A stretch of DNA of 64,000 nucleotides, from contig JADHYV010000066.1 of the NCBI GenBank assembly GCA_027604705.1, forward strand, positions 38,289 through 102,288, in the 5' to 3' direction. Origin of the DNA: Allomyces arbusculus. Its lineage: Eukaryota > Blastocladiomycota > Blastocladiomycetes > Blastocladiales > Blastocladiaceae. Shown here piece after piece: positions 392-40,535 of this stretch (within the stretch, counting starts at the first letter, position 1; each line of letters begins with the position of its first letter). The position numbers and the translations under genes were made by a program. The notes under the pieces were generated by a model. The model had not been told where the DNA came from and did not search any database. It worked only from the letters and a program-made list of their open reading frames with translations.

Positions 392-2532
392 ATGGTCAAG
401 AAGACTGCGCTTTCGCTGGCCGTTGTTGCCTCGCTGATCGCTGCCACGTCGGCGCTCCCCGTTGCCGACGGTGCTGGCTACGGTGTGCCCGTCATTGTCC
501 CGACCACCACCCCGGCGGCGACGGCCACGACGCCGGCCGCCACGGTCGCTCCCTCGTCGTCGATCCCGGCCGCGACGTCGACCCCCGTCTGTACGTTCAC
601 TTAGCTTTTTTCTTCTCGCTCGGTTCGATGTCGCAATTTTGCTTGTGGCGAGAACCCTTGTGGATTGCGTGTGTGTGTTGTGTTTTGTGTGCGCCGAATC
701 ATGAACTCATCATTTGTGTCACGCACCCTCCCTGGCATCGCTCGTTTCATCAAATTTTTCTAGACGGCGCGACCACCGTGCCCTCGACCACGGCCAAGCC
801 CACGACCACGGCGCCCATTGCCGTTGACCCGACGCGCACGGCCACGCCCACGGCGCCCATTGCTGTCGACCCGACGCGCACGGCCACGCCCACGGCGCCC
901 ATTGCCGTCGACCCGACCCGCACCTCGACTGCTACGGCCCCGATTGCCGTTGACCCGACGCGCACGACCACGGCCACGGCCCCGATTGCCGTCGACCCGA
1001 CGCACACGACCACGGCCACGGCCCCGATCGCCGTCGACCCGACGCGCACGGCCACGACCGAGACGGTGCCCGCGCAGCACACGACCGCGCCCGTCGAGAC
1101 GCTCCCTGCTGACTGCACGACCACGATCGTGCAAGGTACGGTTGTGACCGTGACCAAGACGGTTACCGGCACCGCGCCCGCGACTGAGGAGCCCGCCAAG
1201 TCGACGCCCGTCGCCACGACGACGGCCGCCGTCGAGAACCCGTGCATCACCACGGTTATTGCCGGCACGACGGTTACGATTCCGATTGCGCCGACGGCCG
1301 CGCCCACGACCCCGTCGGGCGGCTACGACTACACGACGCCCGCTCAGCCGGCCCCGGCCACGCCCGAGTCCCCGTCGACCGGCTACAACTACGACTCGCC
1401 CAAGCCGTCGGCCGAGCAGCCCGCCGAGGGTTCGCCCGCTGCTCCGGGGTACGGCTACGATGCCGCGCCCGTGACGACCGTTATTGTCGGTGGTGACGAG
1501 CAGCCGATCACGTCGACCATCCTGGTCGCTGGCGAGGAGCCCACCAACGCTTACCCCGCTGGCGTGACGCCGCAGGCCACCTACCCGGCCGGCGAGCTGC
1601 CCGCCAAGAAGAAGTGCCACCGCAAGAAGAAGTGCACGGCGCCCGTCAAGTCGACGACCGTCGTCCCGACTGAGATCCCCGTCGTGACCGTGCCCGTGTC
1701 CTACTCGACCGTGCCCGTCGTCGTCGTGCCGCCCACGACTTACTCGACGGTCCCCGCGGTCGAGATCCCGACGGCCACGATCCCCGTTGCCCAGACGACG
1801 CCCTGCGTCGAGACCATCGTCTCGACGGTCCCCGTTGTCCCGGAATCGCCCAAGACCACGATCCCCGTCGCTCAGACCACCCCGTGCGTCGAGACTGTCG
1901 TCGTTTCGACCGTCCCTGTCGTGCCGGAATCGCCCAAAACTTCGATCCCCTGCACCAAGGGCCAGAAGACGACCACGGTCCCGTCGGCCGAGATCCCCGT
2001 CGCTACCGTGCCGGTTGCCACGGTCCCCGTCGCTCAGACCACCCCGTGCGTCGAGACGATTGTGTCCACGGTCCCCGTTGTCCCGGAATCGCCCAAGGCC
2101 ACGACGCCTTGCACCAAGGGCCAGACGACCGTCCCGGCCACTGAGATCCCGACCGCGACGGTGCCCGTCGCCCAGACGACGCCGTGCGTCGAGACCGTGA
2201 TCGTCTCGACCGTCCCGGTCGTGCCCGAATCGCCTAAGACGTCGGTGCCCTGCACCAAGGGCCAGAAGACGACGACCGTGCCGTCGGCCGAGATCCCGGC
2301 CTCGACCGCGCCCGTTGCGACGACGCCGTGCACCAAGGGCGCTCCCAAGCCCACGACGACGGTCGTTGTGCCCGAATCGCCCGCCAAGACGGAGGAGCCG
2401 TGCGTGACGACGATCACGCAGGAGCCTGCCAAGGCCACGACGACGACGTCGACGGCCACGGCCACGGCCGCGCCCACGACCGACGCGTACGTCAAGAAGC
2501 AGGTGGACGAGTCGTCGGACTCGCTCTACTAA
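392..2532 (+). CDS. Secreted Thr/Pro/Val-rich repetitive wall-type (mucin-like) protein with a basic Cys module
   Basis: Two exons, 392-590 and 764-2532, encode 655 residues. The intron has a GTACGT donor and a TTTTTCTAG acceptor, and phase 1 is kept. The N-terminus MVKKTALSLAVVASLIAATS is a clear signal peptide. Next come six 14-residue APIAVDPTRT-type repeats, then a Gly-Tyr-rich part (GGYDYT, TGYNYD, PGYGYD). A conserved-looking ITSTILV stretch is followed by a very basic module, KKKCHRKKKC. The C-terminal half alternates TTPCVET...TVPVVPESPK units with PCTKGQ...TVPSAEIP units, each with a single Cys. The protein ends SDSLY. No enzyme domain or GPI signal is visible. The composition is what O-mannosylated fungal wall or surface proteins have, and isolated cysteines could cross-link. 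Function is inferred from composition. It resembles the protein at 12439-14154. Confidence 0.8.
811..1062 (+). repeat. Six in-frame 42-bp tandem repeats in the secreted protein
   Basis: Six consecutive 42-nt units start at 811, 853, 895, 937, 979 and 1021. Each encodes a variant of APIAVDPTRTATPT. Differences are mostly third-position changes plus an A/T and P/T drift, so the array has been kept in frame. Such arrays typically vary in copy number between strains. Confidence 0.85.
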
Positions 2533-3648
2533 GCGATTGGTGTGTGATGCTTGAGAGGGAGGGCCGTTTTGATCGTGTCTAGAAGGCTAAATGAGTTAGT
2601 CGTGTTTGTTCAATGGTTTGGACCAAATTGAAATCATATTTGCGCTGGTTCGAACATCTTTCGGCTTCGTTGTCACATGCTGTGTGACTGTGCTGCGTGT
2701 GCGACTGAGTGTTGAGCGCGCTGCTGGTTCCGATGAACGACGTTGTGAGCTGGAGCGTGTTGTTGAGCGTGTTGTTGAGCAAAGGCCCATGGGTGACACG
2801 TTGCGGTCGGCGTTTCTTTTTTAAATTTGAGCACCAGGCAGGAAACGGAAAGGAGAGAGGAGCAACGACCAACTCGAGAACGTGGCGGGGAGAACGTGGT
2901 CCCCCTCTTCCCCGCGAACTGGTGCAGATAGAACTTGGTCGAGCGTGCTTCCGTCAAATCAAACAAGTGGAGAAGTGAGAGCACTGCTCGGCCATCGTAA
3001 ATGCCACTCTGTGTTGCGCAAAAAGCGGCGCGTCGGTAGAACCTTGCTGAACGGGCCGCGCTGCTGCAAAGCGCTGCAAAGTGCCGGTGCTTTACGTACG
3101 GGCCCCTTCGATGCAACCACCGATGGAGCAAAAAGACTTTGGCGGCATGATGTTGAGGAGTCGAACGTTGGTCCTCCGCGCCGCTTCTACCAGGACGGCT
3201 GTCGCGCGGGCATGGAGGGGCCAAGCAAGCGCAGGATCCACTGTCTGCGCATGCGTCATAGAGTTGCTCGGCCGCTCACAAAATAAACCGGTGGAGAGCT
3301 ACGATTATATGTCGGCCTGTGGATACTACGACGTGAAATGCTGGTGGTGAAGCAATGTTATTGCGCGCGATAATGACCACGCTCAAGGTCCTGTCAAACG
3401 ACACCGCGCAGCAAGTCGTGATGCTGAGGAAAAGTTAGCAAAGCTCAGCTGGAATCCAACTGTTTCTTTAAATTGCTATCGCGAATTATGTCGCTAACGA
3501 GAAGAAATGGTGGATTCCATGCGTGACTGCGCATGCTCACTCAAAATGAAAAGACACCGTGCTCAAAAAATTGGCCCGTCCCCGCGCGCATCTACAACAT
3601 AGAAAAAACTCACCAGGCGGATATCCGCGCTCGCACCGCGTGCGGCGC
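2533..3648. other. Convergent intergenic region, no gene recognised
   Basis: About 1.1 kb lies between the stop codons of the secreted protein (+) and the lipid phosphatase (-). It is less GC-rich than the flanking genes and holds only short open frames on both strands with no recognisable protein, signal peptide or motif. It probably contains both 3' ends. Nothing else is seen. Confidence 0.5.
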
Positions 3649-4989
3649 TCACACCGCGTCACGAAGCGTCGTCTGTTTCGTCAACTGATCGTGCGCAAAG
3701 AACGGCGCGCCTACGGGCCCCACGGGCGGCGGCGACGCCGCGAGGGGCCGGCCCATCCTGCTATCCATACTGCCGGCCGACAACGACGCAGCGGATTGGT
3801 GGTCGGCGAATGGGACCGCCGTGTACGGCACGGTCGGCCGGCCAAACACACTGCGGTACCACAGGTACGAGACGAGGATACCGAGGAGCGACCCGACGGT
3901 CACGTCTTGCCAGTGGTGGCGGTAGTCGGTCGTGCGCTATATCGGCGTGCGGGGTTCGGTCAGTTGGAGGTGGTGCAGGTGGGGTGGAGAGTGACGAGGG
4001 AGACGGACCGAAATGGCGACGAGGGCCGGAGGGACGAGGAAGAGCGCGAGGACCGATTGGACCCACGGCGACCGGCGCCAAGACGAGGCCGCGAGGGTGC
4101 CCCAAATGAAGAGCGCAGTAAAAATCCAGCCGGAAAAGGTGACTGTGGTGGGGCAGTTGGCGCGGTGAGCGAAAGCGGATCAGGGCCGAAGAGATCCATC
4201 GCAGACGACGTACGCGACGAATGGCCACTTGGGAAGCTGACGCGCCCATTGCGCACCAGGTCAGCATTGCCAGTGCACGTCCATGCGCCGTTCTTTTCGA
4301 CCGGCTAGCAATTCGCGTTGGGTCACGGTGAGCAGGAGACAAAAACGCCGCCTGAGCAGACAATATGGGGAGAAATCAGCTGGCAAATACCTTGCACCGA
4401 TCAAGAAAGTCGGGCCGCAGCCGGCCGACGACGACCTTGGTCACGTCAGTAACGGCCATGGTCCACGAGAGCGCCAGGTACAGGGCTACCGTCGGGTGAA
4501 GAAGCTCGATGAGGTCTTACTCGGGAGGTAGGGCGTGTGACGCGCGCAGATATGTACCGTTAAGGGAGTAGACCGTTTGAAGGAGGGAAAAGCGGCGCAC
4601 CCAGCTCCAGGCGAGCACCATGCAACTGGGCGCAACAAAAGAGAGCAACAGGAGATGCAGTGAGGTGACGGTCTCGCGCTGGGCCATGGGGTACTGGATC
4701 GACTCGTCGTCAACGTAAAACTTGCTAAAAAGGCGAGCGCGATGCCAATGGGGCGAGGGAAGTGAGCCGGCAAAATTGCCTTTAGGACAACCGTCGGTTG
4801 CTGGCAGCAATTTCGGGGCGAATCGCCCACGGTCAACAGCTCGTAATTGGCGAGAAATTAGCGATGGTGCCGTACGAACCGTTGGAAAACGGGGATATAA
4901 CGCGTGGCCAGAGCGATGCCCAAGAAAATGAGCGGAACGACGGCGATGCCGTCGCGGAGCAGCCGCAGCGGGTGCCATGATCCCACCAT
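3649..4989 (-). CDS. PAP2-family lipid phosphatase (DPP1/LPP1-like), integral membrane
   Basis: Six exons on the minus strand: 4989-4880, 4724-4558, 4515-4391, 4304-4214, 4142-4009 and 3936-3649, giving 304 residues (yeast Dpp1 is close to 290). All three catalytic motifs of the acid-phosphatase superfamily are present: KVVVGRLRP (about 119-127), PSGH (159-162) and SRTTDYRHHWQD (209-220), with the phosphate-binding and nucleophilic His residues intact. Five or six hydrophobic spans surround them. The early part FYVDDESIQYPMA matches the family's typical first loop. Enzymes of this family dephosphorylate phosphatidate, diacylglycerol pyrophosphate or related lipid phosphates in Golgi or vacuole membranes. 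Intron 2 is only 42 nt and removes an otherwise in-frame TAA. The start is the ATG just before the first span; a further upstream exon cannot be excluded. Confidence 0.88.
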
Positions 4990-6409
4990 GCTTGAAGCGA
5001 ATTTGCAGTGGAGACGGAAATGGTTGGAGAGAGCGTGAGTTGGGAGCGCTGGCGGCCGGTTTGGTCCAAATGCGATGCGTGCGTGCTCGCGCGCCAAGGA
5101 GGCGGGGGTGGACAAGGGCGAGCAGACGGCGGCGGCGGTGGTGCAGGTAGTCTTGTTGCGGATTATTGACCAGGGCGTGTGAGTATTGTCTTGGCGTTTG
5201 CGGTGCTCGGGACAGCTGGCCGTGGCGCAGCGGGGGAGGTATGGCATGGGCCGCATGGCATGGGCCGCGTTGGGCAGGGATGATCCGCCCAGATCGGCAT
5301 CGTGGTGCGTCAGCTGCGTCAGAGGCCCATCAGGGGGACGCTTCGTGGGCAGGAGGTTGCTGAAGCGTGGAATCCACGTGGACTGGCCCCTCTGTCTCGC
5401 ATCTCACGCGACGACGATTGCGCGTTCTGGTCACGCGTCCAGCGCGCGCTGCTGACGTCGAGTTCCTGCAGCAAGGCCGAGCAGCACGACGCGACTGTTG
5501 CGACCAGCGTTTACTCGCAAAGCTCTCCTGGGAAAGAAGCTCGACCGCTCGTCGTTTGGGTGCTCCGGTGCCGCTCTGAAGCTCCGCAAGAGGCGCTCGG
5601 CCGCCTCAGCACCTGTGAGCGGAGCGACCGAACCAGGCCAACCAGCTCGCGACCTGATCACTCGCTCGGCAGCCGTCAGTAGCGCGCAACATGAGCTTTG
5701 GGATGCACCGAGTTTCGGGAGAGCTGCTGCAATGCGCGCCCCAGGTTGGCTGTCGCCCACCGACGCTTGCGCGTGCCGTTTACTGGCTGTGCTGGCAAGT
5801 CGATGCGATCAATGCGAGCGCGATCACATTGTTGGGAGACTCCATTGCTGTTTCTTTGCTGGAAAAACAACCACTTTTTGCTTTGCGCCGTGCTCTTCTT
5901 TTGTGCTTGGCTACCCGCGACTCGCGACTCGCAAGCGGTCGATCAAGCTCGTCGCGCTTTGCCTCCGCCGCCAACGACCTGATCGCAGTCCCTCTGCTCT
6001 CGCTCTCTTCAATCACCAACGTCCATTGCCACTTGATTCCTGCCCTACCGTCACTGCCTTGATTGCCCTGCCGCCGCCGCTGACGCTGGGTCGCCACTCG
6101 ACTCCCACCCGCTGCGCCGGTTGCTCGACCCTTCCCCTGTCGCCTGTTGCTCGTGCCGACAGCGCCATTGTCGCCGCCATCTTCCTCAACCTCCTCTCAA
6201 CCTCGTCAAACGCTCCGCTGCCGACGCGCGGGGCCACACTTTATCGCTTCTTCGTCCATTTCTATCGCCATCTCGCCCCATTTTCCACATTGCACCGTCA
6301 TTTCCGTCCTTCCAACCCGCCGGACGCAGGACCTGCCGGCACCCGTTCGACTTGGTGGCCGCGTATTTGCGCCCGAAACCAGTTTAATTGACGATAATAC
6401 AAGGTCGCG
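4990..6409. other. Divergent promoter region between the lipid phosphatase and CDC25
   Basis: About 1.4 kb separates two divergent start codons. It contains pyrimidine-rich stretches near 6000-6350 on the plus strand, which look like 5' UTR of the phosphatase gene at 6410. The open frames here show no recognisable domain and shift composition freely, so they are treated as chance frames. Confidence 0.5.
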
Positions 6410-9013
6410 ATGATGCCGCCAAGCTTTGACGTGGAGATGGAGGAAGTGGGATCGTAAGTACTTCCGTTGCCCCACCCTCGACTCGCCCGCACTCATCGCG
6501 CTCGACTAGGCCCTTGAGCTCGCGCGGTGTTCCATGCGGCCCTCGCGCCGCGTTCGTGTTTGCGCGCAACGTGCCGGTGCCGTCGTCGCTTTCCTCGGCG
6601 GCTTTCCCGGCCCCTGTTGGCGTCGCGGCGCGCCGCCCACGGTTTTCGGGCCCTTTTTTGCGCGCAAGGGTGTCGACGCCCGTCACGTCGCTCGCGGCCG
6701 ACCTCGACTCGGGGTTGCTGCTGTCGTCGGGTCAAAAGTACGTTAGGCATTGCTGATTTGCTTAGTCTGGTTCCCTTCATTTTCGATATCCATGTCTTGC
6801 ATCTGGCGCGGGTTCATGGCGCCGATGTCCCTCCGGTCCGGGGAGAGAGAGGGTGGCCGGGTGCGGACCGGGCGGGCGCGGTCATGGTTTGCGGTCCTGG
6901 TGATGCTGGAGGATTGTTGGTGGATGGTGGTGGCGCGTGCGCGTGCACCGCCGTCGAGTGGGCCTCGCCGGCTTGCCCTTCCCTTATTTGTTCTCTTCTT
7001 GCCTTTTCTTCCGTGCTTGCTGTTGGTTTGAGTGGAGCTTGCGCACGGGAGCATCAAACCGCCGTCTCGTCTCGTCCCGTCTCGTTTTTGTTTCGCTTCT
7101 CGTCTCGTCCTTGCTGTTGTTGCTGTTGCTTTGCTCCTCGCCGTCTTGCTGTCGCGCTAACCGCCGGCTCCCCGCCGCTGCCGTCCGTCGCCGTCGTCGT
7201 TGCCCGCCGTTGTCGTTACCCGCCGTCGTCGACCATGATCAGGGCCATCCGCTCGCCCGTGTCGGTGCCGGTGCTGCACCACAGCTCGCCCGCGGCCGCC
7301 GTGAGCTCGCCGTCCTTCCTCAAGCCCGCAGCCGCCGCCACCATGAGCTCGCCGTCGCACGGCAGCAACACGCCACTCTCGTCGCTGCTCGGCACGCTCG
7401 GGCCTGTGCGGTCCGACCTGCGCCTGCAGTTGTCCGACGGCGAGTCCGACTGCGAGATCGACGCCGACGTCGAGGCCGACGCGCTCGATGACTTGTTGGC
7501 ACCCATGAGCGACGACGATTTTGGTCCCTCGGTTGCTTCGGACTCGCCGTTTGGCCCCTTCTCGCCGCCATGCGACCCACCCAGTACGCCGTTTGGCCCA
7601 TCCACGCCGTGCCCATACTCTCTCGCGTTCCCCGGCAACGCGGCGCCGGATACTGCCAGCACTACCCGCACTGTCGCGTCGCCCGCGAGCGCCGTCTCGG
7701 CACGCACCGTCGCGAGTACTATCAGCAGCACTAGCACCGTCTCGTCGAGCGCTAGCTCCGCGACCACGCCCGCCGCAAGCGTCGCTGATGCGCTGCTGCC
7801 GTCCCCGCACACGCTCTCGTCCCCAACGGGCTTCAAGGTTCCGCCCGCGGCCGTCAAGAGCAGGAAGGGTCTGTTCCCGACGACGCCCGCTCCCAAATTC
7901 CTGCGCACGCGGTCCGAGGGCAACGTATTGGCGCGCAAGCGTAACAATGCCATGGCCTTTGCCCAGAGCCCCGTTGCGAACCACGGTTCTGATATGGTCA
8001 TTGCCCCCGGCATGCCGCGCGCTATGTCGGCACCAACGTTCGATCTGACGACGCCCTCGCGCAGCACCGTCAACAACTGGGCGGGCAGCAGCTGCGACGA
8101 GCAGACGCCGTCGGCGCCGCGGCCCATCAAGCGGTCGAGGACCTCGGCGCCGCGGTCGCCCATGGTTGAGCTGGTACCGCATTACCAGGTGCACCATGAG
8201 CATTCGTCGAGCCTGCGCGCACTCTCGCTCGAGTCGGCCACGTTGAGTGCATCGACGCCCTCGGCCTCTGGTGCAATCCCGCGTATGATTCCGCGGCCGT
8301 CGCCCAAGCCCGCGGGCCCGCACCTGCTGCCGTCCAAGCCGGGCAAGTCCGACTCGATCCGGCGCATTACACCCGAGACGCTCGTCGATGTGCTGGAGCG
8401 CCGTGTCGCGGGCGTGACCGACTACAAGGTGATCGACTGCCGATTCCCGTTCGAGTACGAGGGCGGGCACATTCAGACGGCGATCAACGTGAACCGGTTC
8501 GAGGTGCTCGACGCCATGTTCACCAAGAACCCGACCCCGATGCACTCGACGGTCCTCATCTTCCACTGCGAGTTCTCGTCACACCGTGCACCTGCCATGG
8601 CCATGCACTTGCGCGCGCAGGATCGGATCCTGAACGTCGCGCGGTATCCGGACGTCTACTACCCGGAAATCTACGTGCTCGAAGGCGGGTACAAGGCCTT
8701 TTACCTGGCGCAGGCAGCACGGTGCGTACCGCAGGCGTATGTTCCCATGGACGCGACCGAGTACGTGGACCAGTGCCGCCGCGAAATGGCCGAGCGCAAG
8801 CGGTCGCTCGAACGCAGCAAGTCGTCGGCCGAGTCGTTTGGTCGACCTGTGCTCACTCGGGCCCGGTCGTGCCTCGCCACGATTCCAGCGTCGCCCGAGT
8901 CGCCCACCGTTCGTGGAGTCGCGCGCGCACTCGAGGATGCGGAACCCATCACGCTCTGTTCGTCGCCGCTGGTCAATTCGGACGCGACGGACCCGCTTGC
9001 CGCACAGGCATGA
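6410..9013 (+). CDS. CDC25 (mitotic phosphatase type): M-phase inducer phosphatase, CDC25 type
   Basis: Three exons, 6410-6453, 6510-6737 and 7243-9013, encode 680 residues. The first intron has a perfect GTAAGT donor; the second (505 nt) has GTACGT. The catalytic rhodanese-like domain lies at about 450-610. It contains the fold motif VIDCRFPFEYEGGHI and the HCEFSSHR active site (CX5R, Cys about 533), followed by the typical YPEIYVLEGGY. The long Ser/Thr/Pro-rich N-terminus is the usual regulatory region, with acidic patches and many potential phosphosites. CDC25 removes inhibitory phosphates from CDK1 to start mitosis in the nucleus. If the second splice is wrong, an ATG at 7235 would give a protein of about 592 residues with the full catalytic domain. 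The RasGEF also historically called Cdc25 is a different gene, here at 56874-59897. Confidence 0.9.
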
Positions 9014-10046
9014 GGGCACGCACGAGGTGGGCGCACTGGTGGCTGCGAGGACACTGTGCGTGCGTACGGTTCGCACTGGACGACCATCATCACAGGCTCG
9101 AGAGTTACCCGGCTTAAGTTGCCAGCCGACGCCGTGCATTTCGTTCACGCGACGCTCCCCTCCTTGATATCGCGCCCACCCCGCCCCACTATCCTTTCCC
9201 TCTCTCCCTCACCTCGGATCCCACTTCTACCTTTATGTCCATTGCTCGCACCACCTCCCGCGACGGCCATTGCCACGTCTCGGCGGCGCGTCAATCTCTC
9301 ACCTGCATTGATTGCCCTTGGCGCTCTTTTCGGAGCCTTCGTTTGCCCTGTCGCTGCACTTCTTGTCCCCTCATTTCTTTTGCCGATTCTTCCTGTTGCA
9401 CCTCAATCATCGACCCTTTGCGTTGCCCAAGTACTTTCATTTCATTTCGTTTCGACGCTGTCATCGTTTGCTTGTCCTTTTCCCTCTCTATTCTTTTATA
9501 TACACGGCCAACCCAGCGGCCCATTCGACGCGACTCGGGCGAACAATCAGCGGCGGGCGACTTGCGCGCATCGAGAAAGAGGGCGCATCGTCGTTTGGCA
9601 GGCCAGTTGGTTTGACATCAATGGCGGCGTTGCTCTCGTGCTTCCGCAGCAAGAGCGCCACCATCAAGTTGTGTCGTCGCCACGGCCGGGCGACTCGTTG
9701 GTTGCCATTTGCTTGATCCCTTGGTCGATCTTGTCGTCGCCTATTTCTCCAGCTCATTGTCGTCGCTGCTGCAACCCGCGCAACTTGCTGCAATCCAACG
9801 TACCGGCGCGCGCTGCCGTGATCCGTCTACGCGCGGAGACCGGCAGTCATCGCATTCCAGCGCTCCTGAACACAGCCGGATCACGGAACCTGTGTTGTAC
9901 TCGAGCAGGACCAGCCCGGCCGTCACCAAGCGCCAGCAACCCCGACGTAGCGCTCCGCACCACGCTCCTCGTCGTTGTCAACCCGACCAACCGCACGTGC
10001 GCGCTCGCGGCCGCTCCTCTACGCGCCCCTGACTCCCGCCAGCACC
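9014..10046. other. Intergenic and 5' flank of the kelch gene
   Basis: About 1 kb with CT-rich, AT-richer plus-strand tracts (9160-9500) typical of a promoter or 5' UTR in this window. It includes a TTTTATATACA element near 9494 that could be a TATA box for the kelch gene. No protein was recognised. An upstream exon carrying a signal peptide for the kelch protein could be hidden here but was not found. Confidence 0.4.
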
Positions 10047-12131
10047 ATGCCCGGGCAGACGGTCGACCCGCGCTACGCGCACTCTGCGGTCCTCGTCAAC
10101 CAGCAGCTGTACCTGCTCGGAGGCCATCTCGCGGGCGGCGGCGCGTCCCTCTCGCAAGTCCTCTCCGTCAATCTGACGACACCATGGGCGGTCTCTGGCG
10201 TGCCGTACGTGCAGCGAGCCGTGACGACCGCTGCGCCCACGGCCCGGAATGGCGTTTCGCTCTCGGCGTGTCGCGCGCAGTCACGGTCGGCGATCCGGTG
10301 TGTTGGTGGGCTCGAGGGTGGCGATGCGCTGCCGAGCGAGTTGCTCGAGTTGGTGTATACGCTCGAGGATAACAAGTGGACGGTCGTCAAGGGGCTCGGC
10401 ACACGGCCGGCGTCACGGTTCGGGCACGCGGTGGCCGTGACCAACGGGACGATGTATGTGTTTGGCGGCGCAACTGCGGTCCCGAATTGTATGTGCACTT
10501 CGCTTCGCTCGAATCGTCTTTGATGCGCGCACACGCTCGCGCGGCATCTGGTTGCCCGCTCTTCGCGGATCTCGCTGATCACGCTCCCCGTCACTTCCTC
10601 TGGTAGCGCTCTCCAACGTACCCGGTGGGATCATGGCCGACTTTGCGTTGCTCAATCTCGCGACCAACACCTGGTCGACGGGCCCTTCGGGTTCGTGGCT
10701 ACCGGCCGTTGCGCAAGGCACGCTCACGCCGATCCGTGCCGCACCCCACTTACTCGTCGCGATTGGCGGCGTCACGGCCAACAAGACGCTGCAGGACATG
10801 AGTTCCGTGTGGGTGTTTGATACGAAAACGCTCGCATGGACAAAGTACCACGTCGCCGACCCGCCACCTGCGGCCCGCCGTGGGCATGCCGCGTGCTCGC
10901 TCGGGGAGTACACGTATATTCAGGGCGGGACCGATTTAGCGGGGACGGTGCTGTATGCGGATATGTACGCGCTCGCGTATGCGGCGACGCCGGGACCATC
11001 GTTTCGGTGCGTTTTAGTCGATTGTCCCGCCTTGTTGTGCCCTGCTCACCATGAATGACTGGCGTCATCAGGTGGATCCCCATCTACGTGCCGACATCGA
11101 GCAGCGAAATTTCCAGCAACTCGATGCGGTACCCCAGCGGGCGCATGCTGCACGACATGACGTGCGCGACCAAGCAACTGTTCATGTCGTTTGGCCTCGG
11201 CGCGCCCGACGCGACCCCGCTCGACAACAACAAGCCTGACGGCCCAATCGCGTTCCACGGGACCGTTGCGCCGCTGTCCACCCTGCACGTCTACTCGATC
11301 GAGCCCGAACACGTCGGATGGGCCGAGTCGTACTCGCCGCTCTCGGCGCCCGTCATCGGGGACGAAGTGCCGAGCGGAGCAACCACAACTACGGGCGACG
11401 ACAACAGCGGACTGTCAGTACCTGTGATTGCCGGCATTTCTGTCGCGTGCTTTGCCGTGGTCGTGGCCTGCCTCGTTGCGTTCATCCTGTACCGGCAGCG
11501 GCACCGCGACAAGAAGGAGCAGCAAGAATTCTCGGCCGCGATCACGGCGATGCAAATCAGCAACAAGCCGCAGTCTGGAGCCAACCCGGCGACCTACGTC
11601 GACCAGGAGTCTGCGATCCTACCTGCCGCCGCACCCGTCCTCTCCCCACCCGCCACGGCCCTCTCGCGCGGCCCCTCCATGGCCGCCTCCGCCCGCCCAC
11701 CCTCGCACCCGCCGTCTCGCCCCATGTCCGCCGCGACCGGGGACGTGAACATCCTATACATGGGCCCTGCACAACCGTACCCGCCGATCGTGACGACGCG
11801 GCCCGTCGTGCCCGTTGTCGGAGTCGTGGGCAGCATGCACTCGCCGCCGCTCGGCGCGTCGCCGCAACCGCCGCCGCCGCCGATTTCCAACGTGCCCGTG
11901 ACCACGCCCGTCCCGCGGCGCCGGTCGTCCGGGAGCGGGTCGATGCGCGCGCCGTCGCGCGTGCCGACGCCCGGGGCCAGGGCGTCGCCGACGGTCCCGC
12001 CGCACCAGCCGGCAAGTGCGACAGTCGGAGGTGCGGGCGGGCCGGGGGCAGGACCGGCGCCGCCATTGGCCAAGGATTTGGACGACGCGGCGAGTATTGC
12101 GTCGGTCGAGAGCGGGATTCAGTTTGCGTAG
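10047..12131 (+). CDS. Kelch-repeat protein with single C-terminal membrane span
   Basis: Three exons, 10047-10488, 10607-11006 and 11072-12131, encode 633 residues; donors are GTATGT and GTGCGT. The N-terminal half carries kelch-type blades: YAHSAVLVNQQLYLLGG, RFGHAVAVTNGTMYVFGG, and RRGHAACSLGEYTYIQGG. A single hydrophobic helix follows (about 455-478, VIAGISVACFAVVVACLVAFI), then a basic stop-transfer RQRHRDKK. The cytoplasmic tail is long, Pro/Ser-rich and low complexity. This is the layout of fungal type I kelch surface proteins, whose propeller faces the outside. Oddly, no signal peptide is seen at the chosen ATG (good ACCATG context), so either an upstream exon is missing from the model or insertion uses the single span. 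The ligand is unknown. Confidence 0.78.
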
Positions 12132-12438
12132 AAACTCGCTGGTGGCTAGAGATAAGATGTTTTTTTTTGTTTTGTTTTGAGCTGTTCGTGCAGGGTTCGT
12201 TTTATGCGCCTGGCTGCCATGCCAGGTTTTTGGAGTTGCTGTGAATGTGCTATTGTTTTCTGATTTTTTTCTTCATTTTTTTTTTTTTGCGCTCTGTTGG
12301 AGACGATGCCGACCAGACACTCGGTTTTGAATTGGGACCACATAGAAGACGAATGAATGGGTTTTTACCGTATCTTTGGCACAACAGACTACAAACTAAG
12401 ATCAACGCGTGCGCGACACTCATGCGCACCTACTCCAC
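12132..12438. other. Convergent 3' regions with poly-T tracts
   Basis: About 300 nt lies between two convergent stop codons. It contains T-runs (TTTTTTTTTGTTTTG near 12160 and a 12-T tract near 12277-12288) and is the most AT-rich patch in the neighbourhood. It likely holds the overlapping 3' UTRs and poly(A) signals of the kelch gene and the acidic secreted protein. Confidence 0.5.
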
Positions 12439-14154
12439 CTAGTAAAAATTCTCTGACGTGCCAACGACCGGCGTGGCCGCCGGTGCCACTGTACTCGCCG
12501 TGGTGCTGGTTGACGTGGCTGCAGCGGCACTGGTCGACGCTGGCGCAACAGGTGCCGAAGGCGCCGCTGCCAACACCGTAGTACTCGTCACAGCCGCGAC
12601 TGTCGTCGCCAGCGGCGCGAATTCCGTGAGCGTCGCGTCAGCAACCGTCGTGCTGACTTCGAGCGCGCCCTTGGCTACGGGGTCTGCGCCGTCGCAGTCC
12701 TTTTCGACAACGACCGTCACGACTTCATCCTCGCAATCATCTTCGGCCGTGGGTTCCTCGTCGTCGCACTCGTCCTCGGCAGCTGCGTCCTCCTCGTCAT
12801 CACAATCCTCGTCCGCGCCCGACTCGGGTTCTTCGTCGTTGCAATCATCTTCCCCGCTCGCGGGTTCTTCGTTGCCGCACTCGTCCCCGTTCGCCGGCTC
12901 CTCATCATCGCACACGCAGTCGCACTTATCGTCCTTCCCGGCGCCGGGCGTCGATGGCGCGCCCGCTGTCGGCTGCTGCGTCGGTGCAGGGACCAGGATC
13001 GTCGACGTGATCACTTCCCCATCGACCACGATCGTCGTCACCGTCGCGATCGGAGTCGATGCCGCCGGATCCTGCGTCGCCGTTGGTGTTGGGCCCGTAC
13101 CCACGCCGAGATCGTACCCGGGCGAGACGGGCGAGGCCGCGGGCGGAGCGTTCGTGGGGCCGCTGCCGTAGACGTAGGTGCCCGTGGGCGGCGCGGGGGT
13201 CGCGCCGCTCGATTCGGAGCCGTAGATGTAGGTGCCGGTCGCGGAGGGCGCGGGTGGAGCGACGGTTGGGACGGGCGGTGCAGAGCTCGTCGGGGCGGGC
13301 AGCGCAGTGTCAGGGGGCAATGCGGTGCTGGTGATGGGACGCGTCGGGCCGTCCGCGGGCGGCGTGGTCGAGGGTGTGGGCGACGCGCTGCCGTTCGATT
13401 TGGAAGCGGGGGCAGTCGATGGCGACGGGTACGTAATGGTTGAGGTGGAGGTGATGGCCGACGTGGTCGCGCTCGACTGTGTGACCGTGCCGTACGCCGT
13501 GGTCGTGGTGATCGTGCCCATGCTCGTTGACAAACTGGTGGAGAGCGGTGCGCTGGTGGAGAACGTGGCGCTGGTGGTCGCTGATGCGGTCTCGGTCACG
13601 GTGCGCGTCGCGCTCGTGCTGGACGCCGATCTGGTCGTGATCGCGGTCCCAGTCGAGATAGTGGTCCCAGTCGCCAGCACTTGACCGCCAGTCGACGTCG
13701 ACGTGATCGCTGTCGAAGTCGTGCTCGCCGTCCCAATCGCCGTCGCTTGGCTGGTCGACAAAATTGGTGTCGAAGACGCGGGCGGCGCCGTATACACCGC
13801 CGTACTCGTCAACGCCGTCGTCGCGCTGGGCACGGACGACCGCGGCGACTCAGAGGCCGTCGGAACCGCGCTCGATTGCACCGTGCTGCTCGCGATCGGC
13901 GCGGAACTACTCGGCCGCGTAATCACAGGCACGGGCACGTCCGGCGTGCTCGATGCCGACGTGATGGGCGGGACGATCACGGGCATGGGCGGAGTTGTCG
14001 CGTTCGACGACGTGGGCGTGCTTGATGGCACGTCAACGGGCGGGCCGTACGGGTCGACGGGCCGCGCGTGCGCCGAAAAGGCCGCAAAGAGCGCGGCGGC
14101 GGCGAGGATCGCGAGAATGCGGGTGGGGCGCGGCCGGCAGGGTACGGTCGGCAT
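12439..14154 (-). CDS. Secreted Ser/Thr/Pro-rich wall-type protein with an acidic Cys-rich module
   Basis: A single exon encodes 571 residues. The start MPTVPCRPRPTRILAIL opens a signal peptide (n-region with Arg, core LAILAAAALFAAF, cleavage near AHA). A long Ser/Thr/Ala/Pro region follows, then tyrosine motifs GTYIYGS and GTYVYGS. A conserved-looking TTIVVDGEVITSTILV stretch comes next, followed by an acidic module of about 90 residues (about 400-490) rich in Asp/Glu with regularly spaced single Cys (DCDDEE, ECDDEE, DCEDEV). The C-terminus is SENFY. No catalytic domain or GPI signal is evident. Composition suggests a heavily O-glycosylated wall or extracellular protein; the acidic module might bind Ca2+ or a basic partner. 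In-frame ATGs upstream of the signal peptide are ignored because they would bury it. It appears distantly related to the protein at 392-2532. Confidence 0.78.
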   Translation of the reverse strand: MPTVPCRPRPTRILAILAAAALFAAFSAHARPVDPYGPPVDVPSSTPTSSNATTPPMPVIVPPITSASSTPDVPVPVITRPSSSAPIASSTVQSSAVPTASESPRSSVPSATTALTSTAVYTAPPASSTPILSTSQATAIGTASTTSTAITSTSTGGQVLATGTTISTGTAITTRSASSTSATRTVTETASATTSATFSTSAPLSTSLSTSMGTITTTTAYGTVTQSSATTSAITSTSTITYPSPSTAPASKSNGSASPTPSTTPPADGPTRPITSTALPPDTALPAPTSSAPPVPTVAPPAPSATGTYIYGSESSGATPAPPTGTYVYGSGPTNAPPAASPVSPGYDLGVGTGPTPTATQDPAASTPIATVTTIVVDGEVITSTILVPAPTQQPTAGAPSTPGAGKDDKCDCVCDDEEPANGDECGNEEPASGEDDCNDEEPESGADEDCDDEEDAAAEDECDDEEPTAEDDCEDEVVTVVVEKDCDGADPVAKGALEVSTTVADATLTEFAPLATTVAAVTSTTVLAAAPSAPVAPASTSAAAATSTSTTASTVAPAATPVVGTSENFY

Positions 14155-17947: not shown

Positions 17948-18563
17948 GGTCGAGTTCGGCTGGTGGCGGGTCGACGGGGTGCGTGGGTGTGGGCGAGGTG
18001 CACGCAAACGAGAGTGCGAGAGGACGCGCGCGGCGAGAGGCGAGAGCAACAAAAGGCGCGCGTGCGCAACAGCAGCAACAGCAACGGCGGAGGGACGACG
18101 AGACCGGGACAGGACGAGGGAGGCGCGCGATCTGAGCGTGATCCAGCCGAACGAGGTGGCGGGGCTGGAGTGGAAGCCGCGAGCGGAGTGGGGAGGGTGG
18201 AAGCACGAAGACGGTGGCCGTGGGCGAGAAAGGTGTGACGACGACGCGCGACGGTTAACCAGCGAGTGTGGCCTGACCAACCGACCGACCGATGCGGGGG
18301 GGATGCGCCCTTTTATCGCCGCGGCAGGCGGGCCACGATGGCGCCAGGCGACTGGCGTTGCCCACTGCCGCGCCTTGAACGATTTTCCGGCAGCGCGCGG
18401 ACGGATGCGTGCGCGCCTTGGTCGGGGGGTAGGGCGTATCTCCGCCCTCCGCCCTCTCGGGTCGCTCAACACTCGCCTTGATGCCTTGCGCGCCGCGTTG
18501 CGCGCCGCGCGACCATGTACCACACAACATTGGAACTCGGCGCGCGCACGCACGCTTTGGCGT

Positions 18564-18600
18564 GCTCTGCTCTGCTCTGCTCTGCTCTGCTCTGCTCTGC
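18564..18600 (+). repeat. (GCTCT)n pentanucleotide microsatellite
   Basis: About seven uninterrupted GCTCT units lie upstream of the cyclin gene, on the opposite strand from it. A single variant unit (TTTGC) follows. Read on the cyclin's strand it is (AGAGC)n. It may sit in the cyclin promoter or 5' UTR and should be length-polymorphic. Confidence 0.85.
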
Positions 18601-18660
18601 TTTGCCCCACCTGTTCATGCGTCCATCCATCCACGGCGGCCCGTCATGGCAAGTTATTGA

Positions 18661-36581: not shown

Positions 36582-37837
36582 GGTCGTGGTGATGGTGGTC
36601 CAGCGTCAGGTTGGGCTGGGAGTCCTTGTGATGCGTGCAAAACGTGGTGGTGGTGGTGGTGGTGGTGAAGGTGGTGCAAGTGGTCGTGGAAGATGGTGCC
36701 AGTCGCACAGGCTGCTGTGCTGCGGATAAAGTGCGGTGGGAACGAGCGGCGAGTCGACGTGGCCGGGACTTGACTTGTCGATGGTGGTGGTTGGCGGTCG
36801 ATGTCGGGGCTGGCCAGCGACCACTTGCAGCAGCAGGGCGAGCGCACACAGTGCTGGCACGCGGGGGGGGGGGGGGGTGCGCGCGTGCGGCCGCAGTGAT
36901 GCGCGACGGCGCGGCGGTGGAGGTGGTGCGCAAGAGGAGACGAGCTACCGGCGTCGTCGAGGCCGCCGACGACGGCTGCCGCGGCCGCGATGGGCGAACT
37001 TTGGCGTTTGGGAAAAACGACGCACACGGGCGCGGTGCGTGTGGCTTGCTTTGGCGGCACGTGCGACTCCCACCGCAAGCGCACGGCGCGCCGCGCCGCG
37101 GCGCACAGTCGTCTCGCACCTGCACGTGCTCCGTCTCGGCTGGTCGTGCCCTTGCCGGGCAAGTCGGCCGCTTGCCGCGCGGCCACCACGCTCGCCTCGC
37201 GCGCACGCGCCGCGTCGCACCAGCACCAGCACGACGATCGCTCCTCATCGCGACCGGCCCCGTGCCACCGCTTGCACCGGGCGCGCCGGCGGCAGTCGCT
37301 TGATCTCGGCACAACGGCCGCGCCTAAACCAACCGCGTCTTCTCGCGCCCCGGCCGCTTGGCCCCATCAGCACCCACGACCCGCAGCAACCAGCGGCCAA
37401 CGCGTTGCCGCCCGACATGCCGCGGGGAGCGCGAGAGAACCACCGGCGCGAGACCACCGCCGTTCCAGACAAGGGGTTCAGCACGGATGCCGAGTGCCGA
37501 CCATCGCAGCGACCGGAGAGGCATCAGGCCGCACATCACCTCCACCACCAGTCTCGGCCTGCGGTTCTGCGGCGCCACGCGCCGATCCAGACGCGTCCTG
37601 CGCACGCGGGTCCGGACCACGTTGGGGTGCCGGCCCCAGGTCGCGCTGGATGCTGACCGAGCGCGCCACGCCGCGCACGGCGCCGCCTCACGCGCGTCGA
37701 TTCGATGCTCGGTGGACGGCCCGCGGTGGATCAAGTCCGTGCACGCTGCTGTCTCGGTCCGCGACCTGGTATAAAGCGCGCGCGGGCCCCATGTCCGCCG
37801 CCGGCCCCCATCCGCGAAGATCCGGCACCTGTGCACG
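36582..37837. promoter_or_regulatory. Divergent promoter region between the KIN4-like kinase and egt1
   Basis: About 1.25 kb. Near the kinase start the plus strand shows (GGT)n tracts (36640-36680; CCA repeats in the kinase 5' UTR) and further on a 15-nt G-run (36863-36877). A TATAAA at 37770-37775 sits 68 nt before the egt1 start. No recognisable gene; long GC-rich open frames on both strands have no conserved features. Confidence 0.5.
37770..37775 (+). promoter_or_regulatory. TATA box of egt1
   Basis: TATAAA in CTGGTATAAAGCGCG, 68 nt upstream of the egt1 ATG. Its context closely resembles GGGTATAAAGCCGCG upstream of the secreted protein at the left end. Confidence 0.6.
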
Positions 37838-40535
37838 ATGCTGGGCTCAACGACCGCGACCAACGGGACCAAGGCCAAGGCCAACGGGCACGCCTCCAAC
37901 GGCCATGCCATCATCAAGAACGGCCACGATACCAACGGGCATGCCGCGACAAACGGCCACCACGCTGCTGCCAACGGCAACGCCAAGTCGTCCAAGCTGC
38001 ACGCGCCCGCGCTCGACCTGATCGACCTCGCCGCCGCCTTTCGCGCCTCCGGCACCAATGTACCCGCACCGACCCTGCCGACGGTCTCCGACATTGTCTG
38101 GAACGCGTTCCGCCACCCCCACGGCGCGCCGACCGAGCCGCACGCGTCGCAGCTCGACCCATCCGAATCCGCGGGCCGGCGCACCCTCTCGCCCTCTCTG
38201 CCGACATGCCGGTTCGCGCTGCCCGCGTTCCTGCACTACGATGCGCGCGGCCTGCAGCTCTTTGAGCAAATCACGCACCTGAGCGAATACTACCTGACCG
38301 AAGCCGAAGCGAGCCTGCTCGACTCGGACGGTGCCGCGCGCACACTCGCCATGGCCTTGCCCGAGGGCGCGCTGGTGCTCGAACTCGGGTGCGGGTCGAT
38401 GCGCAAGACGGCAATCCTGTTGCGCGCGCTCGAGACGGCCGGGCACGAACGCGGGCTGAAACGGCCTTTCCAATTTTACGCGCTCGATCTGGACCGCGGC
38501 GAGTTGGCGCGGTCTTTGACGGCGCTCGAGCAACATCCGCCGCGTTTCAAGACCAAAACTGAGGGCACTTGGCAGCACGTTACATTCCACGGCCTCGTCG
38601 GCACCTACGATGCCGGGCTCGCGTGGCTCGCGCAGCAGAAATCGGTCTCACACAAGCTGGTTCTTTGGCTCGGGTCGTCGCTCGGCAACTTGACGCGCTC
38701 TGACGCCGTGGCGATGCTCGCGCAAATTCGCACATGCGGAAGTCTTGACAACTTGTCGCTCGTGCTCGGTGCCGACGGGCGGAATGATCCGAAGACGGTC
38801 GCGCGCGCGTACAACGACCCGCACGGCGTGTCGCGCGCCTTTGCGCTCAATCTCCTCGACCATATCGGGACGCATCTGCCCGGAGTCCTGCCGCGCGACG
38901 CGTTCGAGTTTGCGCCCGTCTACAATGAAGACGTGGGGCGGCACGAAGTCTACCTGCGCGCGACCCGAGACCTGCGCGTGCGGTCGCCCGATGGCGACGT
39001 GGACGTGACCCTCGCGCGCAACGAGTTGGTCCACGTCGAGTACTCGTACAAGTGGGCCATGGGCGATCTTTTCGAGCTCGCCTCGCGCAGCCAATGGCAA
39101 ATGGCGCGCGTCTGGACGCACGACGCGCCGGGACCGATCAAGTACTGGCTGCTGTGGCTCACACCGGCCGCTTTCACGCTCGACGCACCCACTCCACCAC
39201 CTACCACCACGCCCTTGCTCCCGAGCCTCGACGAGTGGAACCGCGTCTGGGCCGCATGGGACCACATCCTGCACACCGTCGTCGACCGCGCGGCGCTCGC
39301 GATTGCGCCGATCGATCTGCGGCACCCGCTCGTTTTCTACGTCGGCCACGCGCCGTGTTTCACGGACGTGCAGATTGCGACCGTGCTCGGCGAGCCCACC
39401 CTCGGGCCCGACGAGTTTCCGCGCATCTTCACGCGCGGGATTGATCCGGACTTGGATAACCCGAACCGGTGCCACGACCACTCGGAGGTGCCGGAAGCGT
39501 GGCCGCAGGTGAGTCGGATCGCTGAGTACCGCGACCGTGCCCGCGCGCGGGTGCGCGCGGTGTTGGAGCGCGCGGGGAAGGTGGATTTGGGTGGGAAGGT
39601 GATGCATGCGTTGAACATGGCGTTTGGTACGTTTTTTCCATCATTTCTCTGCGGCCTCGACTCGCACGAATTCTGACCATCGATTTCGTTCTTCAGAGCA
39701 CGAAATCATGCACCTCGAAACGCTCATGTACATGGTCACGCAACTCGACCCCGCGCACATCCGTCTCCCGCGTCCCACTGTCGCGGTCGACCGCGACCCG
39801 ACCCCACTCCCACCCGCGTCCCTCCTCATGCTGCCCGCGCAGACCGTGACTCTCGGCCGGCCGCGCGACTCCCCCGGGTTCGGGTGGGACAACGAGTTCC
39901 CCCAACACCAAGTCGCGATTTCCGCATGCCGCATCCAGTCCCGGCCCGTCTCGGTCGGCGAGTACGCCGACTACCTTGCGCAGCAACCCGCCACGGAGCG
40001 GTCGCGGCTGACACCGTCCGCGTGGCGCGCCACCGACGACGGCAAGGGATGGGAAGTGCGGTCGCTCATCCACGGCTGGCTCCCCACTTGTGCGGTCCGG
40101 AACCACCCGGCCGTCGTCTCGCGCGTCATGGCCGACGCCTACGCGGCGTGGTACGCCGCGACCCACAGCTGTCAAACGCGGCTCCCGACCGAAGCCGAAA
40201 TGCACGTGCTCCACTCCCTCCCGAACTTGCGCGACGGCACGCGGCACGTGGCGTTTGCCGGCCTGAAGTGGGGTACCTGCCCGATGGCCGACGTCGAGAC
40301 CGGGAAGGGGAATGTGTGGGAGTGGACGTCCACGCCGTTCGCCGGGTTCCCGGGTTTCGAAGTGGACCCGATGTATCCGGGGTATAGCGCGGATTTCGTG
40401 CATGGCGCGCACGCGGTCGTCGCAGGCGCCAGTTGGGCGACGCATCGCAGGGTGAGCGACCGGAGGGGGTTCCGGAATTGGTACCAGCCGGGGTACCCGT
40501 ACGCGTTTATTGGGTTCCGGATGGTCGTGGAGTGA
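37838..40535 (+). CDS. egt1: Ergothioneine biosynthesis protein 1 (Egt1), EgtD-EgtB fusion
   Basis: Two exons, 37838-39626 and 39697-40535, encode 875 residues, the same size class as Neurospora Egt1. The N-terminal half is the histidine N-alpha-methyltransferase (EgtD-like, DUF2260), with the SAM site LVLELGCGSMRKT, the strand-loop LWLGSSLGNLTR and the substrate region EFAPVYNEDVGRHEVYLRA. It makes hercynine from histidine and SAM. The C-terminal half is the EgtB-like non-heme iron sulfoxide synthase. A DinB-like helical domain carries the iron-binding HEIMHLET motif (Hx3HxE, formed exactly at the exon junction), followed by a formylglycine-generating-enzyme-type domain ending GNVWEWTSTPF, GASWATHRR and RRGFRNWYQPGYPYAFIGFR. 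It couples hercynine with cysteine and oxygen. A first poly-Asn/His/Gly stretch (about 1-55) is low complexity. The Egt2 lyase is not in the window. Confidence 0.96.

Follow-up and report, generated by a model that had tools for sequence, protein, structure and literature searches.

Structure of the two genes and their products

Two genes encoding Ser- and Thr-rich proteins (28.9% Ser plus Thr in protein 1 and 32.0% in protein 2) are found in the window, by which we mean the whole analysed stretch of 64,000 nucleotides. Gene 1 lies on the forward strand, and splicing of its one intron of 173 bases (392-590 joined to 764-2532) yields a protein of 655 amino acids. An unbroken open reading frame from 392 to 2532 was ruled out, since nine stops are met when the sequence is read straight from 392 and an intron is present. 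Gene 2 lies on the reverse strand. The features are the following.

392..590, + strand: gene 1 exon 1, with a signal-type N-terminus at residues 1-20
479-514, + strand: mature N-terminal segment of protein 1, YGVPVIVPTTTP, within exon 1
591..763, + strand: gene 1 intron, GTACGT...TTCTAG, the removal of which gives a 655-codon frame
764..2532, + strand: gene 1 exon 2, through the stop codon
800..1056, + strand: 42-bp tandem repeat of gene 1, 6.1 copies, encoding an APIAVDPTRT-type array
1312..1458, + strand: Y-x-Y array of protein 1 (GYDY, GYNY, GYGY)
1471..1527, + strand: core of protein 1, VTTVIVGGDEQPITSTILV, containing ITSTILV
1606..1635, + strand: basic patch KKKCHRKKKC of protein 1, with a C-x5-C spacing
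1775..2297, + strand: tandem repeats of 84 and 141 bp of gene 1, with TTPCVET and PCTKGQ
12439..14154, - strand: gene 2, a single open reading frame of 571 amino acids with a signal-type N-terminus
13108..13236, - strand: Tyr array of protein 2 (GTYIYGS, GTYVYGS, PGYDL)
12991..13044, - strand: core of protein 2, TVTTIVVDGEVITSTILV, a predicted beta-hairpin (strands 369-377 and 380-388)
12667..12936, - strand: acidic Cys array of protein 2, 90 residues, net charge -39

The coordinates and frames of both genes agree with those proposed in an earlier note on this DNA, with the intron in gene 1, and the signal-type segments, the Ser/Thr/Pro composition, the Tyr motifs, ITSTILV, KKKCHRKKKC and the acidic Cys array that it had described were all recovered. 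The aromatic C-terminal ends which it had likened to each other, SDSLY and SENFY, are present, although only two of their five residues are identical.

The tandem repeats of gene 1 (arrays 800-1056 and 1775-2297) are Ser/Thr-rich, with one Cys per 21-32 residues in the second array, and those of gene 2 are short, with about two copies each (12794-12872, 13535-13577, and 13634-13673). In gene 1, Tyr units one and two themselves make up a 60-bp tandem repeat (1295-1413) and thus do not count as independent. The acidic array of protein 2 contains nine Cys residues, at spacings of 2, 2, 11, 12, 13, 12, 11, and 13. Neither Rfam matches nor tRNA genes (the latter sought in the bacterial setting) were detected within the window.

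Secretion signals, family profiles and predicted structure

The N-terminal ends and C-terminal tails were judged by hydropathy. The highest 12-residue value near the N-terminus is 2.49 in protein 1 and 2.83 in protein 2, which indicates a secretion signal in each, while a hydrophobic GPI-type tail was found in neither (mean hydropathy of the last 20 residues, -0.88 and 0.32, respectively). For lack of this tail, an identity as GPI-type adhesins of the Als/Flo kind was rejected. Judging from composition, repeats and signal-type N-termini, it is reasonable to regard both proteins as secreted and wall-type.

Pfam, which includes the PIR, CFEM, and hydrophobin families, returned at E ≤ 1 no family for protein 1 and Pox_Ag35 alone for protein 2 (E 0.083, 13.1 bits, with a cut-off of 28.3); at this threshold neither protein matched a PIR, CFEM or hydrophobin profile, an adhesive N-terminal domain or a flocculin/Als repeat. 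In the searches for relatives protein 1 was represented by its exon 2 product (588 of 655 amino acids). No PDB chain was matched at E ≤ 0.1 by this product or by protein 2. Pattern stretches were detected in prokaryotic contigs (335 for protein 2 and 54 for protein 1 exon 2) and in viral contigs (53 and 11), of which none was confirmed; since the collections are prokaryotic or viral, these misses say nothing on fungi. A literature text search for ITSTILV found no paper.

AlphaFold2, run on the single sequence of protein 2, gave a mean pLDDT of 37.5, with 15 of the 571 residues between 70 and 90. The two blocks 371-380 and 381-390 reach 76 and 73, and their two strands fall on the core, which is predicted to form a beta-hairpin and is the sole confidently predicted structure of this protein. 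Folding of the protein 1 exon 2 product by itself left all 588 residues below a pLDDT of 70; no strand is predicted in its core (pLDDT 27-29), and the strands that do appear, at low confidence, fall in the repeats. When windows were ranked by aggregation tendency, ITSTILV was 4th among the 12 highest-scoring ones listed for protein 1; in the list for protein 2, TVTTIVV took 3rd and VITSTIL 4th place.

Similarity between the two proteins

The earlier note had also attributed a shared ordered plan to the two proteins. ITSTILV is present in both; however, some shared 7-mer arises in 7.7-13.2% of 3000 shuffles in each of five shuffle models, so that such a match is weak by itself. Comparison of the protein 1 core segment with the whole shuffled protein 2 gave P values of 0.0003-0.007. 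With composition weighting, the top local match between the mature proteins is exactly ITSTILV, and its score is reached in 0.006-0.014 of 500 shuffles; shuffle values are 0.001-0.013 for the region of the Y array plus core and 0.003-0.013 (300 shuffles) for the whole mature proteins. All Y-x-Y occurrences (three of three in protein 1 and two of two in protein 2) lie at most 75 residues before the core, an arrangement reproduced jointly in 0.001 of 20000 global shuffles (post hoc), and the N-terminal match YG-x-PV-x-VP-xx-TP has a P value of 0.0125-0.019. These values are not to be multiplied, since the stretches were picked after inspection.

It is quite conceivable that the two are unrelated mucin-like proteins, in which convergent low-complexity composition is accompanied by a short match spotted by eye. 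Besides the frequency of shared 7-mers, this is favored by the result of masking the core (protein 1 residues 301-330), after which the highest-scoring local alignment left over does not rise above shuffles (0.498 of 500), and by the reversed protein 2 control, which scores 264 versus 281 for the true order. BLASTP with composition statistics and SEG on places the core at an E value of 0.13, second to a 0.10 stretch in another register, and with SEG off the core is not among the matches. Looser versions of the protein 1 core also occur within protein 1 itself (residues 182-200 and 229-240), so that sequence of this kind makes the motif type easily. The low P values of the core segment, and the same order of Tyr array and core in both proteins with its joint value, speak instead for kinship. 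Scanning all six frames of the window with a core-like pattern gave two hits, the protein 2 core and residues 229-240 of protein 1, but missed the core of protein 1 itself, which has a longer turn; the scan is thus a poor gauge of motif frequency. BLASTP without composition correction gave 9e-31 over almost the full length, a composition-driven value in which core is not aligned to core; the excerpted text of PMC6023273 cautions that low-complexity proteins of this sort readily give false results when used to look for homologues.

On these comparisons a common layout appears supported at a modest level, and distant relationship of the two proteins is the likelier, though unproven, conclusion.

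Charge, codon bias and gene arrangement

The charge opposition which the earlier note had seen between the two Cys-bearing modules is local and lopsided: the 90 residues of the acidic array carry -39, the Lys patch of protein 1 has ten residues with a charge of +7 (the highest value in 2000 shuffles was +5), and both mature proteins are negative overall (-13 for protein 1 and -48 for protein 2). Codon bias is much stronger in gene 1 than in gene 2 (ENC, 28.9 and 42.6), with A-ending codons at none of 504 fourfold positions in gene 1, at 39 of 409 in gene 2, and at 72 of 1462 in four other open reading frames of the window, which suggests unequal expression. A distance of 9.9 kb, in which at least three unrelated genes are found, separates gene 1 from gene 2; a divergent pair was ruled out by their orientation (+, then -) and by these intervening genes.

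We consider it very improbable that the two proteins join in the wall as had been suggested, with the Lys patch of protein 1 receiving the acidic array of protein 2 and a cross-link through their cysteines forming afterwards. The local charges are opposite, and Cys residues occur in both charged regions, both downstream of the core, although the free state ascribed to them is not readable from sequence. A precedent for Cys-dependent binding between distantly homologous wall proteins is offered by Aga1 and Fig2, the Saccharomyces cerevisiae mating proteins: according to the excerpted text of PMC10144551, Aga1, which is apparently unstructured, binds its distant homologue Fig2 at the wall surface, conserved Cys motifs are needed in both, and disulfide formation is possible but untested. 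Aga1 and Fig2 are GPI proteins that carry WCPL/WCPY and CX4C motifs, whereas neither of the two proteins studied here contains Trp or CX4C, and protein 1 has one C-x5-C. The statement that no such wall system had been described is therefore too strong for Cys-dependent pairing, while for the charge-paired form no case was found in a literature search directed at it, as judged by title. Pairing by charge is disfavored by the very different codon bias, by the negative net charge of both proteins and by the position of the genes, which are neither adjacent nor divergent, and charge is the sole result connecting the two regions.

These objections would change their meaning if protein 2 were a scarce, multivalent cross-linker gathering several abundant protein 1 chains, an idea to which we give hardly any credence. 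Each of the five to seven acidic repeats of protein 2 with a single Cys (about -39 in total) would dock one Lys-Cys patch (+7), and the network would be fixed by disulfides at the docked cysteines and by self-association of the hairpin cores. Under this reading the differences in codon bias and in size of the charged regions would reflect stoichiometry and not count against pairing.

It is rather unlikely, but less far-fetched, that the acidic Cys array binds metal ions and that the Lys patch serves for proteolytic processing, with no connection between the two proteins. One Cys per 11-13 residues stands within the Asp/Glu-rich repeat, but no metal-binding family was found in Pfam at E ≤ 1 and no PDB chain at E ≤ 0.1. 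All dibasic pairs of protein 1 fall in the patch except those at residues 3 and 644. Lys-Arg is the site that Kex2 prefers, and the patch is without any Lys-Arg pair, which argues against processing there. Dibasic motifs are given as potential processing sites in adhesins in the excerpted text of PMC6023273. These two roles are compatible with the explanation that we prefer, set out below.

Comparison with fungal adhesins

As summarized in the excerpts of PMC6023273, adhesins commonly have high Ser/Thr content, tandem repeats, Cys-rich regions, dibasic motifs and Ile/Val/Thr-rich amyloid cores. The Als/Flo adhesins of Candida and Saccharomyces resemble proteins 1 and 2 in their signal peptide and Ile/Val/Thr-rich aggregation core, and protein 1 in their Ser/Thr-rich repeats (PMC6023273, excerpts); they differ in that many have a folded ligand-binding N-terminal domain, for which our proteins gave no Pfam match, plus a GPI signal. 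BAD1 of Blastomyces likewise has tandem repeats with regular Cys, of 24 residues each in the same excerpts, but compared by description its repeats are disulfide-stabilised, contain a helix and bind heparin. The 23 adhesion-related families of fungi, without expansion at early nodes in the excerpted text of PMC6733946, have no bearing on proteins 1 and 2.

Proposed roles of the two proteins

Alongside the gene structures, composition, motifs, codon bias and predicted hairpin of protein 2 reported above, the explanation towards which we lean, with moderate confidence, is that a high-GC fungus secretes both proteins as largely disordered, mucin-like Ser/Thr/Pro-rich glycoproteins, probably O-glycosylated, of its surface or wall, the wall placement being by inference, and that the two probably belong to a single, loosely conserved family as distant members. 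Their layout would comprise a signal peptide, a short YG-PV-VP segment, a Ser/Thr/Pro stalk and a tyrosine array, followed by one Ile/Val/Thr-rich hairpin-like core, a Cys-bearing charged region, a further stalk and a terminal Tyr. The core would most likely act as a point of weak self-association by beta-aggregation, and the cysteines may form disulfides within or between chains. Each charged region may have a separate ligand: the Lys patch of protein 1 would bind acidic polysaccharide or serve as a cleavage site, and the acidic array of protein 2 would bind metal ions or basic surfaces. The abundant one of the two is probably protein 1, with protein 2 a minor one.

A tyrosine array with the core downstream of it provides a specific signature for searches, which could reveal whether such a family exists. 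Should the fungus belong to an early-diverging lineage, a guess on our part, proteins 1 and 2 would be concrete candidates there.

Genes, frames, and neighborhood

The two signal-bearing, Ser/Thr/Pro-rich proteins and the features around them are as follows.

392-2532, plus strand: gene 1, from the ATG at 392 to the stop at 2532, with one intron (591-763); spliced product (protein 1), 655 amino acids
3652-3936, minus strand: piece matching PAP2 phosphatase (E = 1.4e-5; 25.3 bits, below the cut-off of 27.2)
7217-9010: rhodanese-domain protein (E = 2.7e-12), Cdc25-like by eye
10041-10520 and 10579-11055: two matched stretches of a Kelch-repeat protein
14154-12439, minus strand: gene 2, a single ORF; product (protein 2), 571 amino acids
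12667-12936, minus strand: acidic array of protein 2 (residues 407-496), with 9 Cys and net charge -39

The spans of both genes agree with the earlier note. A likelihood score for synonymous codons, with four further ORFs from the window as its training set, supports rather than proves the frames given here: these score highest in both genes, although one antisense frame comes close (0.390 versus 0.339 for gene 1; 0.188 versus 0.175 for gene 2). Signal-type N termini, an intron with the usual ends, and long open frames add to the case for both.

At least three unrelated genes lie between genes 1 and 2. By eye, the Kelch-repeat protein (10041-12128) has a single transmembrane segment (SVPVIAGISVACFAVVVACLVAFILY) as well as a long tail rich in Pro and Ser; for the tail part at 11055-12128, a Pfam search matched no family. 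Judging by Pfam, the remaining genes of the window look ordinarily eukaryotic, and elsewhere in it we detected cyclin, eIF2D, protein kinase, histidine methyltransferase, cytidylyltransferase, ubiquitin E1, RasGEF, and aspartate-semialdehyde dehydrogenase. The histidine-specific methyltransferase (37775-39673; Pfam E = 1.4e-73, plus a weaker DinB_2 match) we take to be ergothioneine-type. GC content per 2 kb is 57 to 68% across the window, and a TGCTC pentanucleotide array (8.6 copies, 97%) occupies 18563-18605. The source is probably a fungus; Blastocladiomycota would be a guess based on the GC content.

Resemblance of proteins 1 and 2

The ITSTILV core that the earlier note considered shared is indeed present in both proteins and is their longest common word, but a common 7-mer of any kind arises in 7.7 to 13.2% of shuffles, since both proteins are built from the same few residues. 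With composition weighting, the best local match of the mature proteins is exactly ITSTILV, equalled in 0.6 to 1.4% of 500 shuffles. Further shuffle tests, which like the other shuffle tests here were picked after the sequences had been inspected, gave 0.0003 to 0.007 for the 22-residue core segment of protein 1 against whole shuffled protein 2, 0.001 to 0.013 for the Tyr array plus core, 0.0125 to 0.019 for the mature N terminus, and 0.003 to 0.013 of 300 shuffles for the whole mature proteins. All Y-x-Y motifs fall in the 75 residues that precede the core (three of three in protein 1, two of two in protein 2; joint shuffle frequency, 0.001); part of the Tyr array in gene 1 consists of a 60-bp tandem repeat.

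Other comparisons speak against kinship. When BLASTP was run with SEG on and composition statistics applied, the core (E = 0.13) came behind a stretch in another register (E = 0.10), and with SEG off the core was absent from the matches between the proteins. Uncorrected BLASTP gave 9e-31 without aligning core with core, a value that reflects composition. Once the core was masked, no similarity beyond shuffles remained (0.498), and the whole-protein score (281) slightly exceeded that of a reversed control (264). On balance, a distant relationship, unproven as it is, seems somewhat the more probable reading of the two sequences.

Core and charged regions

In a model of protein 2 built from one sequence (mean pLDDT, 37.5), the core is the sole confidently predicted structure, with strands at 369-377 and 380-388 (block pLDDT, 76 and 73). 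Exon 2 of protein 1, folded alone, showed no strand in the core (pLDDT, 27 to 29), low-confidence strands falling in the repeats instead; a core hairpin in protein 1 is putative, drawn from its sequence. Protein 1 also carries two looser core look-alikes (residues 182-200 and 229-240). On an aggregation scale, the core halves rank within the 12 highest windows listed per protein, though not at the top. Neither protein has the hydrophobic C-terminal tail of GPI adhesins, and a Pfam search at E <= 1 gave no adhesin, PIR, CFEM, or hydrophobin match; in kind, they resemble the Ser/Thr-rich, repeat-bearing surface proteins covered in PMC6023273, which names Ile/Val/Thr-rich segments as amyloid cores of Als and Flo adhesins.

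The acidic array begins with CDCVC and continues as a degenerate Asp/Glu repeat with Cys at intervals of 11 to 13 residues, for which no Pfam family at or above the cut-off and no PDB match was found. The basic patch of protein 1, KKKCHRKKKC, carries +7 over ten residues (maximum of 2000 shuffles, +5), and of the 11 Cys outside it, 9 lie in the C-terminal repeats (residues 414-613). Of the oppositely charged Cys modules previously proposed, the opposite local signs, the Cys, and the position after the core stand, but the two regions differ about nine-fold in length and mature protein 1 has a net charge of -13 despite its patch, and they are not simple mirror images.

Codon bias and the proposed pairing

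Aga1 and Fig2, two distantly homologous wall proteins, bind each other in a Cys-dependent way (PMC10144551), but their Cys motifs are missing from proteins 1 and 2. Gene 1 uses A-ending codons at 0 of 504 fourfold sites (ENC, 28.9), a zero with a probability of 9e-12 at the rate of four other ORFs (72/1462), while gene 2 uses them at 39 of 409 (ENC, 42.6). In eight further ORFs from the window, open frames that possibly include some noncoding sequence, ENC lies between 36.9 and 43.3. The bias persists outside the large repeats of gene 1 (0/246; ENC, 31.0), and therefore repeat homogenization alone is not the explanation. The same extreme bias shows in Ser, where TCG makes up 92% of 39 codons, unlike in the nine other ORFs measured.

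Strong codon bias usually accompanies high expression, so the two proteins are probably made in unequal amounts. This speaks against an equimolar pair, in which the opposite charges would join the proteins one to one; it is no argument against a scarce multivalent linker, whereby a few molecules of protein 2 would each gather several chains of protein 1 in the wall.
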